From the NCBI RefSeq assembly GCF_030705305.1, contig NZ_JAUZEE010000008.1, positions 1 through 64,000 on the forward strand: a stretch of 64,000 nt of DNA, in the 5' to 3' direction. Below are positions 39,401 through 42,627 of the stretch, piece by piece. The position numbers and the translations under genes were made by a program. The notes under the pieces are model-generated. The model did not search any database, was not told where the DNA came from, and saw nothing but the letters and a program-made list of their open reading frames with translations. This DNA is from Leptothrix discophora (GTDB taxonomy: Bacteria > Pseudomonadota > Gammaproteobacteria > Burkholderiales > Burkholderiaceae_C). Positions within the stretch are counted from its first letter, which is position 1. Every line of letters begins with the position of its first letter.

Positions 39401-40993
39401 TCAGCGCAGGAAAAGACGGTACACCGGGTTGTCGGTTTCCTCGACACAGGGGTAGGCCAGCGTGTCCAGGAATTGGCGGAACTTTGTCCGGTCCGACTTC
39501 GGAACCTGGATGCCCACCAGGATGCGGCCGTAGTCGGCACCCTGGTTGCGGTAGTGGAACAGGCTGATGTTCCAGCCCGGGTGCATGCTCGACAGGAAGC
39601 GCATCAGCGCGCCCGGACGCTCCGGGAAGACGAAGCGGAACAGCCGCTCGTCGGCCGCCAGCGGCGAGTGCCCGCCCACCAGGTGGCGGATGTGGTCGGC
39701 GGCCAGCTCGTCGTGGCTCAGGTCGATGGCGCGGAAGCCGTTGCGCGCGAAGAGATCGGCGATCTCGGCCGACTCGCCGGGCTTGCTCAGGCTCAGGCCG
39801 ACGAAGATGTGGGCCTGGCTGGCGTCCGAGATGCGGTAGTTGAACTCGGTCACGCTGCGCGGGCCGATCAGCTCGCAGAAGCGCTTGAAGGAGCCGCGCT
39901 CCTCGGGGATCGTGACGGCGAACAGGGCCTCGCGGGCCTCGCCGAACTCGGCCCGCTCGGCCACGAAGCGCAGGCGGTCGAAGTTCATGTTCGCGCCGCA
40001 GGTGATGGCCACCAGCGTCTCGTCGCGGATGCCGGTGCGCTCGACGTACTGCTTGATTGCCGCCACGCCCAGCGCGCCGGACGGCTCCAGCACCGAGCGG
40101 GTGTCCTGGAAGACATCCTTCATGGCCGCGCAGACCGCGTCGGTGTCGACGCGGATGAACTCGTCGACCAGCACGCGGGCGATGCGGAAGGTCTCCTCGC
40201 CGACCTGCTTGACGGCGGTGCCGTCCGAGAACAGTCCGACGTCGTGCAGCCGCACGCGCTTGCCGGCCTCGACCGAACGCGCCATCGCGTCCGAGTCGTG
40301 GGTCTGCACGCCGATCACCCGGATCTCCGGGCGGACCGCCTTGAGGTAGGCCGCCACGCCCGAGATCAGGCCGCCGCCGCCGATCGCCACGAAGACCGCG
40401 TGGATGGGGCCCTGGTGCTGTCGAAGGATCTCCATGCCGATGGTGCCCTGGCCGGCGATCACGTCCGGATCGTCGAAGGGGTGGACGAAGGTCAGGCCCT
40501 GGTCGCGGGCGACGCCGAGTGCGTGCTCGTAGGCGTCGGAATAGCTCTCGCCGTGCAGCAGCACCTCGCCACCCCGGGCGCGCACCGCGTCGACCTTGAC
40601 CGCCGGCGTGGTCGTCGGCATCACGATGACGGCCCGGCAGCCCAGCCGCTGGCCGCCCAGTGCGACGCCCTGGGCGTGGTTGCCGGCCGAGGCGCAGATC
40701 ACGCCGCGGGCGAGCTGCCCGGGCGTCAGGTGGGCCATCTTGTTGTAGGCGCCGCGCAGCTTGAAGCTGAAGACCGGCTGGTTGTCCTCGCGCTTGAGCA
40801 GCACCCGGTTGCCCAGCCGCGCCGACAGGTTCTGCGCCGGCATCAGCTCGGTTTCGTGAGCGACGTCGTAGACCTTGGCGTTCAGGATGCGCTGCAGGTA
40901 GCTGCTGGCCAGCGCGAGCTTGGCGGCCTGTGCCTTGGCGGGGCTGACCTTGGCGGGCGCCTTGCCCTTGGTCTTCGCGGCGGTCCGTGCCAT
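39401..40993 (-). CDS. ilvA: threonine ammonia-lyase, biosynthetic
   Basis: PLP enzyme turning threonine into 2-oxobutanoate, the first step to isoleucine. About 530 residues: catalytic domain with the PLP lysine K78 (FSFKLRGAYNK), the phosphate-binding GGGGLISG loop and SAGNHAQGVA, then two C-terminal ACT-like regulatory domains (ALFAVTIPEERGSFKRFCEL and RLFRFVFPERPGALMRFL) for isoleucine feedback. ATG 40993 has AGGCGAG upstream and gives near-normal length; an in-frame ATG at 41077 would add a basic 28-residue tail. A terminator-like hairpin and a candidate small RNA lie upstream. Confidence 0.95.
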   Translation of the reverse strand: MARTAAKTKGKAPAKVSPAKAQAAKLALASSYLQRILNAKVYDVAHETELMPAQNLSARLGNRVLLKREDNQPVFSFKLRGAYNKMAHLTPGQLARGVICASAGNHAQGVALGGQRLGCRAVIVMPTTTPAVKVDAVRARGGEVLLHGESYSDAYEHALGVARDQGLTFVHPFDDPDVIAGQGTIGMEILRQHQGPIHAVFVAIGGGGLISGVAAYLKAVRPEIRVIGVQTHDSDAMARSVEAGKRVRLHDVGLFSDGTAVKQVGEETFRIARVLVDEFIRVDTDAVCAAMKDVFQDTRSVLEPSGALGVAAIKQYVERTGIRDETLVAITCGANMNFDRLRFVAERAEFGEAREALFAVTIPEERGSFKRFCELIGPRSVTEFNYRISDASQAHIFVGLSLSKPGESAEIADLFARNGFRAIDLSHDELAADHIRHLVGGHSPLAADERLFRFVFPERPGALMRFLSSMHPGWNISLFHYRNQGADYGRILVGIQVPKSDRTKFRQFLDTLAYPCVEETDNPVYRLFLR

Positions 40994-41184
40994 CGACTCG
41001 CCCTTCGCCTTCCCGATGGACTTGCCGGCAGCAGCCGGAAGGGAGGGCGAGGCGGGGGTCTTGCGCGCGGAAGGCATGGTCGGGAAGGCGGGTCGGAAGG
41101 GGCGTCGATCATAAGTGAGCCCCCCCGGGCATCCCCCGCGCACGCGGCCCCGCGCGGGGCCGCTGGCCTTCCCTGCTCGGGCAG

Positions 41185-41317
41185 AAAAAAAGCCCAAGAC
41201 CGGAGGCCTTGGGCTTAATCCACCTTTTGAGGAGGGTGGAGGAGACAACTTGTGGAAATCACCCGACATGCGGGCAGCACTTGATTGACTTTTGGTGGCT
41301 GACCGCTCGGTTTCCTT
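41185..41317 (-). ncRNA. candidate small RNA (or terminated leader) upstream of ilvA
   Basis: A self-contained 133-base transcription unit with no convincing reading frame. A good sigma-70 promoter lies at 41325-41354, and the predicted start is A at 41317. The 3' end is a 9-bp hairpin (41190-41198 / 41208-41216, 9-base loop) followed on the minus strand by a T-run, a textbook terminator. Inside, CCACC/GGTGG (41235-41239 / 41220-41224) forms a hairpin whose loop shows CUCCUCAAAA, an anti-Shine-Dalgarno sequence; a second UCUCCUCC lies just before it. No Ile- or Thr-rich leader peptide is present. It could also be a conditional terminator for ilvA. Confidence 0.6.
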
Positions 41318-41324
41318 GAGGATG

Positions 41325-41354
41325 ATTCTATGCGTGCGCCATGTTGCAATGCAA
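41325..41354 (-). promoter_or_regulatory. sigma-70 promoter of the candidate small RNA
   Basis: On the minus strand: -35 TTGCAT (41354-41349), 18-bp spacer, -10 TAGAAT (41330-41325). The start point about 7 bases further lies just upstream of the small-RNA hairpins. Confidence 0.6.
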
Positions 41355-41547
41355 CGTACACGCATGAATTCCCCTGCCAGTTCGACGCACAAGGCATGAC
41401 GTCCCGCACGGTCTGCCTGCTTGGGTTAGTGCTGCGTGGGGCGCCAGGGTCACAATCCGCGACTCGGCGAGGGGCACGGGCCCGCGACACCGGTTCCGGA
41501 TACCTCGCCTCAACCGCAGCGCGGCGCGTCGGCGCCGATCGACCACC
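41355..41547. other. gap before the OsmC gene
   Basis: With the small-RNA region this makes a stretch of over 500 bases without a protein gene between ilvA and the OsmC gene. I see no reading frame, terminator or clear promoter in these 193 bases; the promoter of the OsmC-family gene should be here. Confidence 0.4.
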
Positions 41548-41973
41548 ATGGAATGCACGATCAACTGGATGCCGTCCAACGGCATGGCCTTCTCCGCAGA
41601 AACCGGCAGCGGACACCTGCTGACGATGGACGGCGCGCCCGAGGGCGGTGGCCGCAACCTCGCGCCTCGGCCGATGGAGACGCTGCTGGCCGGCGCCGGT
41701 GCCTGCGCCGCCTATGACGTGGTGCTGATCCTCAAGCGCGGACGCCACGCCATCAGCGGCTGCAAGGTCCAGGTCCAGGCCGACCGCGCCGAGGTCGACC
41801 CCAAGGTTTTCACCCGCATCGTGATGACCTTCATCGTCACCGGCAAGGGCCTGCCAGAGGTCGCCGTGCAGCGCGCGGTGCAGATGTCGCACGACAAGTA
41901 CTGCTCGGCCACCGCGATGCTGGCCAAGACCGCCGAGATCGAGGTCAAGGTCGAGGTCGTGAACGAGGCCTGA
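41548..41973 (+). CDS. OsmC family protein
   Basis: OsmC/YhfA-like protein of 141 residues, a group that includes thiol peroxidases. It has the two conserved cysteines of the fold, in AGACAAYDVV and in DKYCSATAML, so peroxide or organic-hydroperoxide reduction is possible; YhfA-type members have no proven role. Start ATG 41548 gives the usual MECTINWMPSNGMAF N terminus. It is convergent with coq7, 12 bp between the stops. Confidence 0.9.
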   Translation: MECTINWMPSNGMAFSAETGSGHLLTMDGAPEGGGRNLAPRPMETLLAGAGACAAYDVVLILKRGRHAISGCKVQVQADRAEVDPKVFTRIVMTFIVTGKGLPEVAVQRAVQMSHDKYCSATAMLAKTAEIEVKVEVVNEA

Positions 41974-41985
41974 CGGCCCGGCCGC

Positions 41986-42627
41986 TCAGATGCGGTGGGC
42001 GGCGGTCGTCATGACCTTGGCGGCCGCACGCATCAGCCAGCGCACTGGCGGCGGCGGCGGCAGGCCGCCAGCGTCCTGCGCCTCGATGGCGTGACGGGCT
42101 TCGTCGTCGCGCATCTGCGTGACGATGGCCCGCGAGCTGCGGTCCTGCGCCGGCAGCCGGTCCAGGTGGCTCTGCAGGTGCTGTTCGACCTGGCGTTCGG
42201 TCTCGATGACGAAACCCAGGCTGGCGCGACGACCCATGCGTCCGGCGGCCAGCCCGATCGCGAAGGCACCGGCGTACCAGAGCGGGTTCAGCACCGAGGG
42301 CCGCGTGCCCAGCTCGCGCAGGCGTTGCTCGGTCCAGGCCAGGTGGTCGACCTCGTCGGCTGCGGCGGCATCGAAGTGGGCACGCAAGCCCGGATCCGGC
42401 GTCGCCAGGGCCTGGGCGTTGTAGAGCGCCTGCGCGCAGACTTCGCCGACGTGGTTCACGCGCATCAGCGCACCGGCCAGCGCTCGCTCGGTCTCGGTCA
42501 TCGGCGCGTCATCCACACCGTCCACCTGCGGCCGGGGTCGTTGAGCGTGGTGATGACCCCACACTGTGCGCAGTCCGATGTCGACCGTGCCCAGCACGCG
42601 ATCCAGGGTGTCTCTTGTTTGCATCAT
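41986..42627 (-). CDS. coq7: 2-nonaprenyl/octaprenyl-3-methyl-6-methoxy-benzoquinol hydroxylase
   Basis: Di-iron monooxygenase for the last ring hydroxylation of ubiquinone synthesis (COQ7 family). The 213-residue protein shows the iron ligands in [32 protein letters not shown] (E-x-x-H) and [12 protein letters not shown] (E-x-x-H), with a hydrophobic central helix binding the membrane. Start ATG 42627; a second ATG follows directly. It is divergent from the first porin gene. Confidence 0.95.

Follow-up and report, generated by a model that had tools for sequence, protein, structure and literature searches.

Small RNAs of the Rfam family RF02278, which carries the Rfam name "Betaproteobacteria toxic small RNA," have been described in Burkholderia, Bordetella, and Herbaspirillum, and members of the family were seen as free RNAs in Northern blots in other species. 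The family was reportedly named for growth inhibition in E. coli, an account that citing papers trace to Kimelman 2012. Among the best-described members are four double-hairpin RNAs of Burkholderia cenocepacia, ncS03, ncS05, ncS27, and ncS62 (PMC5688073, PMC4603805), which share with the RNA reported here two hairpins, a CU-rich loop and 5' site, and an intrinsic terminator; their reported targets are transport and metabolism genes, and three of the four are reported to share an upstream motif for which no regulator is named (PMC5688073). S17 of Bordetella pertussis is reported to lie between a glycosyltransferase gene and coq7, to be cut by RNase E from a 190-nt form to 67 nt, and, when absent, to leave 92 genes raised, 70 of them with matching ribosome binding sites and transporters among them (PMC11722255). 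The same source describes S17 as Bvg-dependent in Bordetella and postulates that its promoter is under unidentified repression. The NmsR RNAs of Neisseria meningitidis are called structurally similar in PMC5688073 and, likened by description, also have two CU-rich stretches; they differ in their tandem copies and TCA-cycle targets. The targets of the family are partly known, and its controlling signal is described as unknown (PMC5688073, PMC11722255).

The PHB storage regulator PhaR has been studied apart from these RNAs. In Ralstonia eutropha the reported PhaR consensus is YTKNTGCRNYGCANMAR, with up to three mismatches allowed and sites adjoining the phaP1 -35 and -10 (PMC12849132), and in Herbaspirillum seropedicae TG[N]TGC[N]3GCAA is reported with a footprint (PMC3206438). 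Both regulons have the TGC-N3-GCA core that we find here, at a position that would block polymerase, and their reported targets are protein genes; neither "sRNA" nor "small RNA" appears anywhere in the text of PMC12849132. A precedent for a PhaR-controlled small RNA comes from another class, in MmgR of Sinorhizobium meliloti, which is reported to be repressed by PhaR/AniA and tied to PHB (PMC12542648, PMC8401924); its control works alike, whereas it belongs to another RNA family (alpha-r8) and its reported targets are phasins. The text of PMC11722255 contains no mention of PhaR, polyhydroxy-, or phasin, that of PMC5688073 none of PhaR or polyhydroxy-, and PMC7011215 names PHB once only, in a reference. 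According to a 2021 review, the role of riboregulation in PHB storage by Cupriavidus necator "remains undeciphered." A literature search by titles found none joining RF02278 RNAs with PhaR, and priority is therefore not certain.

We analyzed a 64,000-nucleotide stretch of the Leptothrix discophora genome (contig NZ_JAUZEE010000008.1, positions 1 to 64,000; here called the window). The RNA found in it is a new member of an already known family; the new part is its wiring.

A small RNA gene on the minus strand

An earlier note on this DNA had proposed that a small RNA acting in trans is made here from a promoter of its own, with a terminator and two anti-Shine-Dalgarno stretches, and had suggested a covariance search. 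That search returned RF02278 at 41184-41247 on the minus strand, over the full length of the model (1-64), with 65.8 bits against a cut-off of 50 (E 5.1e-11); it is the only gathering-level Rfam match in the window. Fold and alignment likewise gave the two hairpins, CU-rich single-stranded sites, and intrinsic terminator of the family. Together with the literature on the family, this match bears out the proposal, and the element is almost certainly an RF02278 small RNA gene. The features of the locus are as follows.

41341..41357, minus strand: PhaR-type box ACGTTGCATTGCAACAT, covering the -35 TTGCAT (phasin-trained matrix, score 21.5)
41354-41349, minus strand: -35 TTGCAT, inside the PhaR-type box (read from the sequence)
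41325-41330, minus strand: -10 TAGAAT (read from the sequence)
41249..41317, minus strand: leader of the predicted primary transcript, poorly conserved (alignment of 13 same-genus loci)
41184..41248, minus strand: conserved small RNA body, RF02278 (Rfam match 41184-41247; 28 copies aligned)
41241..41248, minus strand: site 1 UUGUCUCC, an anti-Shine-Dalgarno stretch left single-stranded by the predicted fold
41219..41240, minus strand: hairpin 1 UCCACC/GGUGGA (predicted fold; nearly invariant in 28 copies)
41234-41225, minus strand: site 2 CUCCUC, anti-Shine-Dalgarno, in the 10-base loop of hairpin 1 (predicted fold)
41184..41216, minus strand: intrinsic terminator, 12-pair stem 41216-41190 plus T-run (terminator search; folds)

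The -35 and -10 are present as the earlier note had read them, with a spacing of 18 bp. A strict sigma-70 consensus scan of 40500-42000 reported no promoter-like site. Judged by consensus, the predicted promoter is therefore weak, and what supports it is that 12 same-genus relatives conserve it. The start predicted from the -10 lies near 41317-41319, which would give a transcript of ~133 nt to the terminator. That this transcript ends in a hairpin and T-run, as had been claimed, was correct, except that the stem has 12 pairs and not 9 bp. The claimed CCACC/GGTGG hairpin with CUCCUC in its loop also folds, with six predicted pairs (41240-41235 with 41224-41219) closing the 10-base loop, and GUCUCCUC of site 1 is invariant across the alignment of 28 copies. 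The 66-nt body folds with z = -4.64 (0 of 200 shuffles equally stable) and the 136-nt transcript with z = -3.63 (1 of 200). RNAalifold on the 28 copies gave 6 pairs, one of them with a two-sided change in 2 copies; the terminator, which differs in length between copies, was missed. Covariation was set aside as proof of the structure because the core is too conserved and the signal correspondingly thin.

In the alignment of 13 same-genus loci, the ~68-nt leader is without conservation and only the last ~65 nt are conserved, beginning at about UGUCUCC, the region in which RNase E is reported to cut S17. An unconserved leader ahead of a conserved ~65 nt would fit processing to a short form, by analogy with S17. 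S17L is reported with a 32-residue ORF (PMC11722255); no leader peptide is claimed here, because the frame runs open into ilvA and the leader is not conserved.

The earlier note had named a lack of conservation outside close relatives as one outcome that would tell against it, and the core turned out to be kept far beyond them: of 60 relatives, 47 have RF02278 matches at E ≤0.001 and 38 have one that passes the cut-off, and of 300 genomes of the order, 137 have matches at E ≤1e-6 and 114 pass the cut-off. The genome of L. discophora itself holds one copy above the cut-off, compared with three to five reported in Burkholderia. Judging by its family, the RNA very probably blocks ribosome binding sites.

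Gene neighborhood and the relation to ilvA

Three protein genes flank the RNA.

39401..40993, minus strand: ilvA, threonine dehydratase (Pfam PALP, Thr_dehydrat_C), downstream of the terminator in the same direction
41548..41973, plus strand: osmC-like gene, divergent neighbor (Pfam OsmC)
41986..42627, minus strand: coq7, next after osmC (Pfam COQ7)

With osmC and then coq7 on one side, the locus resembles that of S17 in its near neighbor coq7, its own promoter, its terminator, and a long form with a downstream core. The 27-nt core reported as 100% identical in several Betaproteobacteria is not preserved, and the hairpin loop is AAAA here versus CTTT in an Achromobacter copy (genome G538) that served as a stand-in for the S17 sequence.

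Synteny was compared in 32 loci, this one and L009-L039, for which ~1.5 kb was fetched. The alternative raised in the earlier note, a conditional terminator belonging to the ilvA leader (or an attenuator there) in place of a free RNA, draws some support from this set, since ilvA follows the RNA in the same direction in 28 of the 32 loci, and from the ilvA reading frame, which at this locus stays open upstream through the whole small RNA (39401-41392, minus strand). It is nonetheless very improbable. In four of the 32 loci, all from other families, the RNA is present and ilvA is missing from the ~1.5 kb fetched, and for this reason the attenuator was set aside; the RNA does not always precede ilvA, and osmC adjoins it in 30 of the 32 loci. 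A conserved regulatory leader was not found in the 13 same-genus loci, and free RNAs of the family are reported from Northern blots elsewhere. Since the frame stays open through the small RNA, automatic annotation could put the ilvA start too far upstream.

A PhaR-type box over the -35

The palindrome that covers the -35 was scored with a 17-base matrix built from phasin promoters alone, namely 66 TGC-N3-GCA sites lying ≤300 nt upstream of phasin genes in 30 phasin loci (29 from the same family as L. discophora and one from another). At this locus the box scores 21.5 and has the complete TGCRNYGCA core; it departs from the R. eutropha consensus at 3 of 17 positions, all outside the core, which is the limit allowed in PMC12849132. 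Its symmetric bases beyond the -35 are conserved in the 13 aligned same-genus promoters, and the same palindrome precedes a phasin gene in the L. discophora genome. Across the small RNA loci, 28 of 31 score ≥11.5 with shuffle p ≤0.01 (the exceptions are L030, L035, and L038; L027, with too little upstream sequence, was left out of the 32), and 32 control stretches taken downstream reached 6.3 at most. A TANNNT follows the box after 8-10 nt in 25 of the 28 boxed loci and after 14 nt in one, and was not found within 22 nt in the other two; by this spacing the box goes with the small RNA promoter rather than with osmC.

A loose form of the box pattern occurs at 31 sites in the L. discophora genome versus 6 in the reversed control, and the small RNA box ranks eighth among the 30 sites scored. 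The higher-scoring sites precede the first phasin gene (two sites), the second phasin gene, and a PHB depolymerase gene; one lies in a CoA-ligase region, and the remaining two lie upstream of DEAD-box RNA helicase genes (L069:1498 and L073:1498), where the PhaR-type boxes score 22.2 and 22.0.

Distribution of the box in genomes with and without PhaR

PhaR was detected with PF07879 in 202 of the 300 genomes of the order. Of the 137 RF02278-bearing genomes, 97 were tested by their best RF02278 locus, with a box defined as a score of ≥8 within 250 nt; 11 were counted apart, and 29 had no RF02278 match among the matches listed. The box was present in 60 of 70 genomes with PhaR versus 2 of 27 without it. 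Raising the threshold to ≥10 and ≥12 left 53 of 70 and 40 of 70 with PhaR, against 2 of 27 without it each time. At ≥8, the downstream control gave 3/70 with PhaR and 0/27 without, reversed sequence from the 97 genomes gave no boxes, and 60 column-permuted matrices gave means of 0.6/70 (maximum 3) and 0.3/27 (maximum 3). The difference held in each of three GC bands (PhaR versus none: 30/35 versus 2/14, 38/47 versus 1/12, and 26/31 versus 0/9). The per-genome p of 5e-13 is too good because the genomes are related; the fairer figure is one median per family and PhaR state, which gives 16/19 versus 1/10 (Fisher p 0.0002, with G044 entered manually among the families). In the 11 genomes counted apart, the same cut-off found the box in 7 of 9 with PhaR (not in G283 or G038) and in 0 of 2 without (G044, G049).

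The box is thus lost where PhaR is absent, with exceptions. Ten of the 70 PhaR-bearing genomes are without a box, and two boxed genomes are without PhaR, G523 (85% complete) and G445 (100% complete, one contig); absence of PhaR from a draft genome may be an assembly gap. Four of the 60 boxes lie >150 nt upstream and are doubtful. Within genus g397 the genome with PhaR (G575) has the box and the one without PhaR (G695) lacks it, and genus g33 is split, with a box in G698 (PhaR) and none in G044 (no PhaR) or G542 (PhaR). Family f217 runs opposite to the rule, family f224 is mixed, and in family f8 the box sits at -25/-26 rather than at -35.

A further 80 named genomes stand outside the PhaR test. 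Their loci were found by the exact core pattern, with at least 80 loci listed and one copy per record; one of the loci, L218, has only 23 nt of upstream sequence. The copy of the cultured relative Sphaerotilus hippei DSM 566 (L210) has the box, with a score of 17.8. Among the 80 listed, 25 score <8 for the box, and 18 of those 25 are from Cupriavidus, Burkholderia, Paraburkholderia, Trinickia, or Ralstonia. Several genomes of this kind hold more copies than the one listed. None of the five Cupriavidus copies among the matches listed reaches 8, and Burkholderia copies among them score at most 8.0. PhaR is best known from Cupriavidus, and there the copies among the matches listed do not support PhaR control. 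Four Cupriavidus/Ralstonia copies (L198, L205, L246, and L260) have another palindrome in common, approximately ATTTCGCANTGCAAATT, which precedes the core by ~150-175 nt and may be either an altered PhaR box or the operator of something else. Another genome of the order, G042, holds nine RF02278 matches (L180-L182, L184, L187, L190, L193, and L196 among the loci named), and in several of these a box, complete or in part, sits near -25, not far from the start.

Copies behind phasin genes

Copies of the RNA also lie in the tails of phasin genes. The count was based on 77 RF02278 matches in 60 genomes (76 plus a sub-threshold copy in the L. discophora genome), of which 14, in 14 genomes, lie on the same strand 117-394 nt past the phasin domain; ~0.01 such placements would be expected by chance. 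In the 12 loci that could be read (two were unparsed), the RNA starts 17-135 nt past the phasin stop, with no box between the two. GUCUCCU is kept in 14 of the 14 copies and UGUCUCCU in 11, while hairpin 1 differs, and for this reason site 1 seems to be the shared working part of the RNA copies.

The L. discophora copy, L002, scores 29.5 bits against the cut-off of 50 and falls outside RF02278; it shares the 5' site and the terminator with the main RNA and not hairpin 1, and on both grounds we call it a diverged relative. The phasin gene that precedes it has two PhaR-type boxes. The tail RNAs could, we infer, be cut from the 3' end of a PhaR-controlled phasin mRNA.

Candidate targets

The complement of site 1, GAGGAGACA, followed by ATG within 2-9 nt, occurs at 18 sites in the L. 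discophora genome and at 0 in the reversed control. AGGAGACA occurs before ATG at 44 sites, including those 18, and GGAGGAGACA before ATG at 0 sites in this genome. According to Pfam, transport proteins are the products of 8 of the 18 GAGGAGACA genes: six are binding proteins, one is a TRAP small permease, and one is a purine-type permease. Among the remaining genes are those for a hydrogenase subunit, an aldehyde dehydrogenase, an AMP-binding enzyme, and two iron-sulfur subunits. A control set with the Shine-Dalgarno sequence GAGGAGT had 28 sites, 16 of which were dropped because they looked internal or short; of the 12 kept, 10 were scanned with Pfam, giving one binding protein and one porin. 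One dropped control gene, L482, resembles an ABC permease by eye. The same filter drops 4 of the 18 GAGGAGACA genes, one of them a binding protein, which makes the filtered comparison 7/14 versus 2/12, in sets too small to carry weight. RNAduplex energies, which ignore intrastrand folding, were left out of the target evidence. The transport-rich candidates agree with the reported targets of S17 and NcS27, which by itself is weak. A target-like GAGGAGACA start also precedes the aldo/keto reductase gene that follows the second phasin gene (L428, contig 29 at 80514).

Proposed regulation and alternatives

The analysis establishes the family to which the RNA belongs, its predicted structure and its synteny, the box and the link of that box with PhaR across genomes, and the phasin-tail copies; transcription, processing, PhaR binding, the repressive sign, and the targets we infer. 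We give a probability of about 0.72 to the account as a whole, in which a trans-acting RF02278 small RNA has a PhaR operator at its promoter and takes part in granule-linked feedback on uptake. Control of the small RNA by PhaR is itself probable. Free PhaR on the box would keep RNA polymerase off, as the box covers the -35. Under carbon excess, PHB granules would bind PhaR and draw it off the DNA, as described for phasin genes, and the small RNA would then appear together with phasin. Processing of the ~133-nt transcript would probably leave a stable ~65-nt form whose two CU-rich sites are single-stranded. By pairing with Shine-Dalgarno regions these sites would block translation of, for the most part, uptake and catabolic genes, so that a filling carbon store would turn down further uptake. 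The second copy and the main small RNA should rise together, because the former sits behind a phasin gene with PhaR-type boxes. Repression is a likelier sign than activation because the box overlaps the -35; PhaR is also reported as an activator of phaP3 (PMC12849132).

An unlikely but more serious rival accepts the RF02278 small RNA and takes the palindrome for the site of another regulator or for a promoter constraint, with the PhaR tie arising from shared ancestry or lifestyle. A box that covers the -35 is constrained anyway, related genomes inflate the per-genome p, two comparisons within families are mixed (f224) or opposite (f217), and the Cupriavidus copies among the matches listed are without a good box. 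However, no promoters other than those of phasin genes went into the matrix that finds the box, and conservation extends to symmetric bases beyond the -35; in some families, f8 for example, the box lies at the -10 or the start instead. The family medians still differ, and in genus g397 the box goes with PhaR. It is far less probable that the RNA has no regulon and slows growth through unspecific pairing of its anti-Shine-Dalgarno sites with messages in general. The growth inhibition in E. coli for which the family is reportedly named is the point in favor of such an RNA, whereas a conserved promoter box speaks for control. The 92 genes reported as raised without S17, 70 of them with matching sites, also tell against unspecific pairing, and S17S is reported to have barely slowed E. 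coli growth (PMC11722255).

Returning to PhaR control of an RF02278 RNA, a broader form of that account has, in our estimate, an even chance of being right: at its root the family would be the RNA arm of the PhaR storage switch, older than the order in view of the RF02278-like RNAs of other orders, with PhaR as the repressor postulated for S17. The switch would release phasin and an anti-Shine-Dalgarno RNA, the latter from its own promoter or, in some lineages, from the tail of a phasin mRNA, and uptake would shut down. A PhaR box at the small RNA promoter and copies in phasin tails would join the RNA family to PHB storage, and the cell would read how full its carbon store is and lower uptake through an RNA. 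The present data suggest that the cell uses the small RNA to lower nutrient uptake as the carbon store fills, with possible relevance to bioplastics production.

RF02278-like RNAs in other orders

The Rfam name may understate both the age and the range of the family. Among 369 genomes searched from other orders of the class, 75 have RF02278-like RNAs below the cut-off. Of the 27 loci fetched (L040-L066), 3 have a PhaR-type box and 7 have coq7 within ~1.5 kb.
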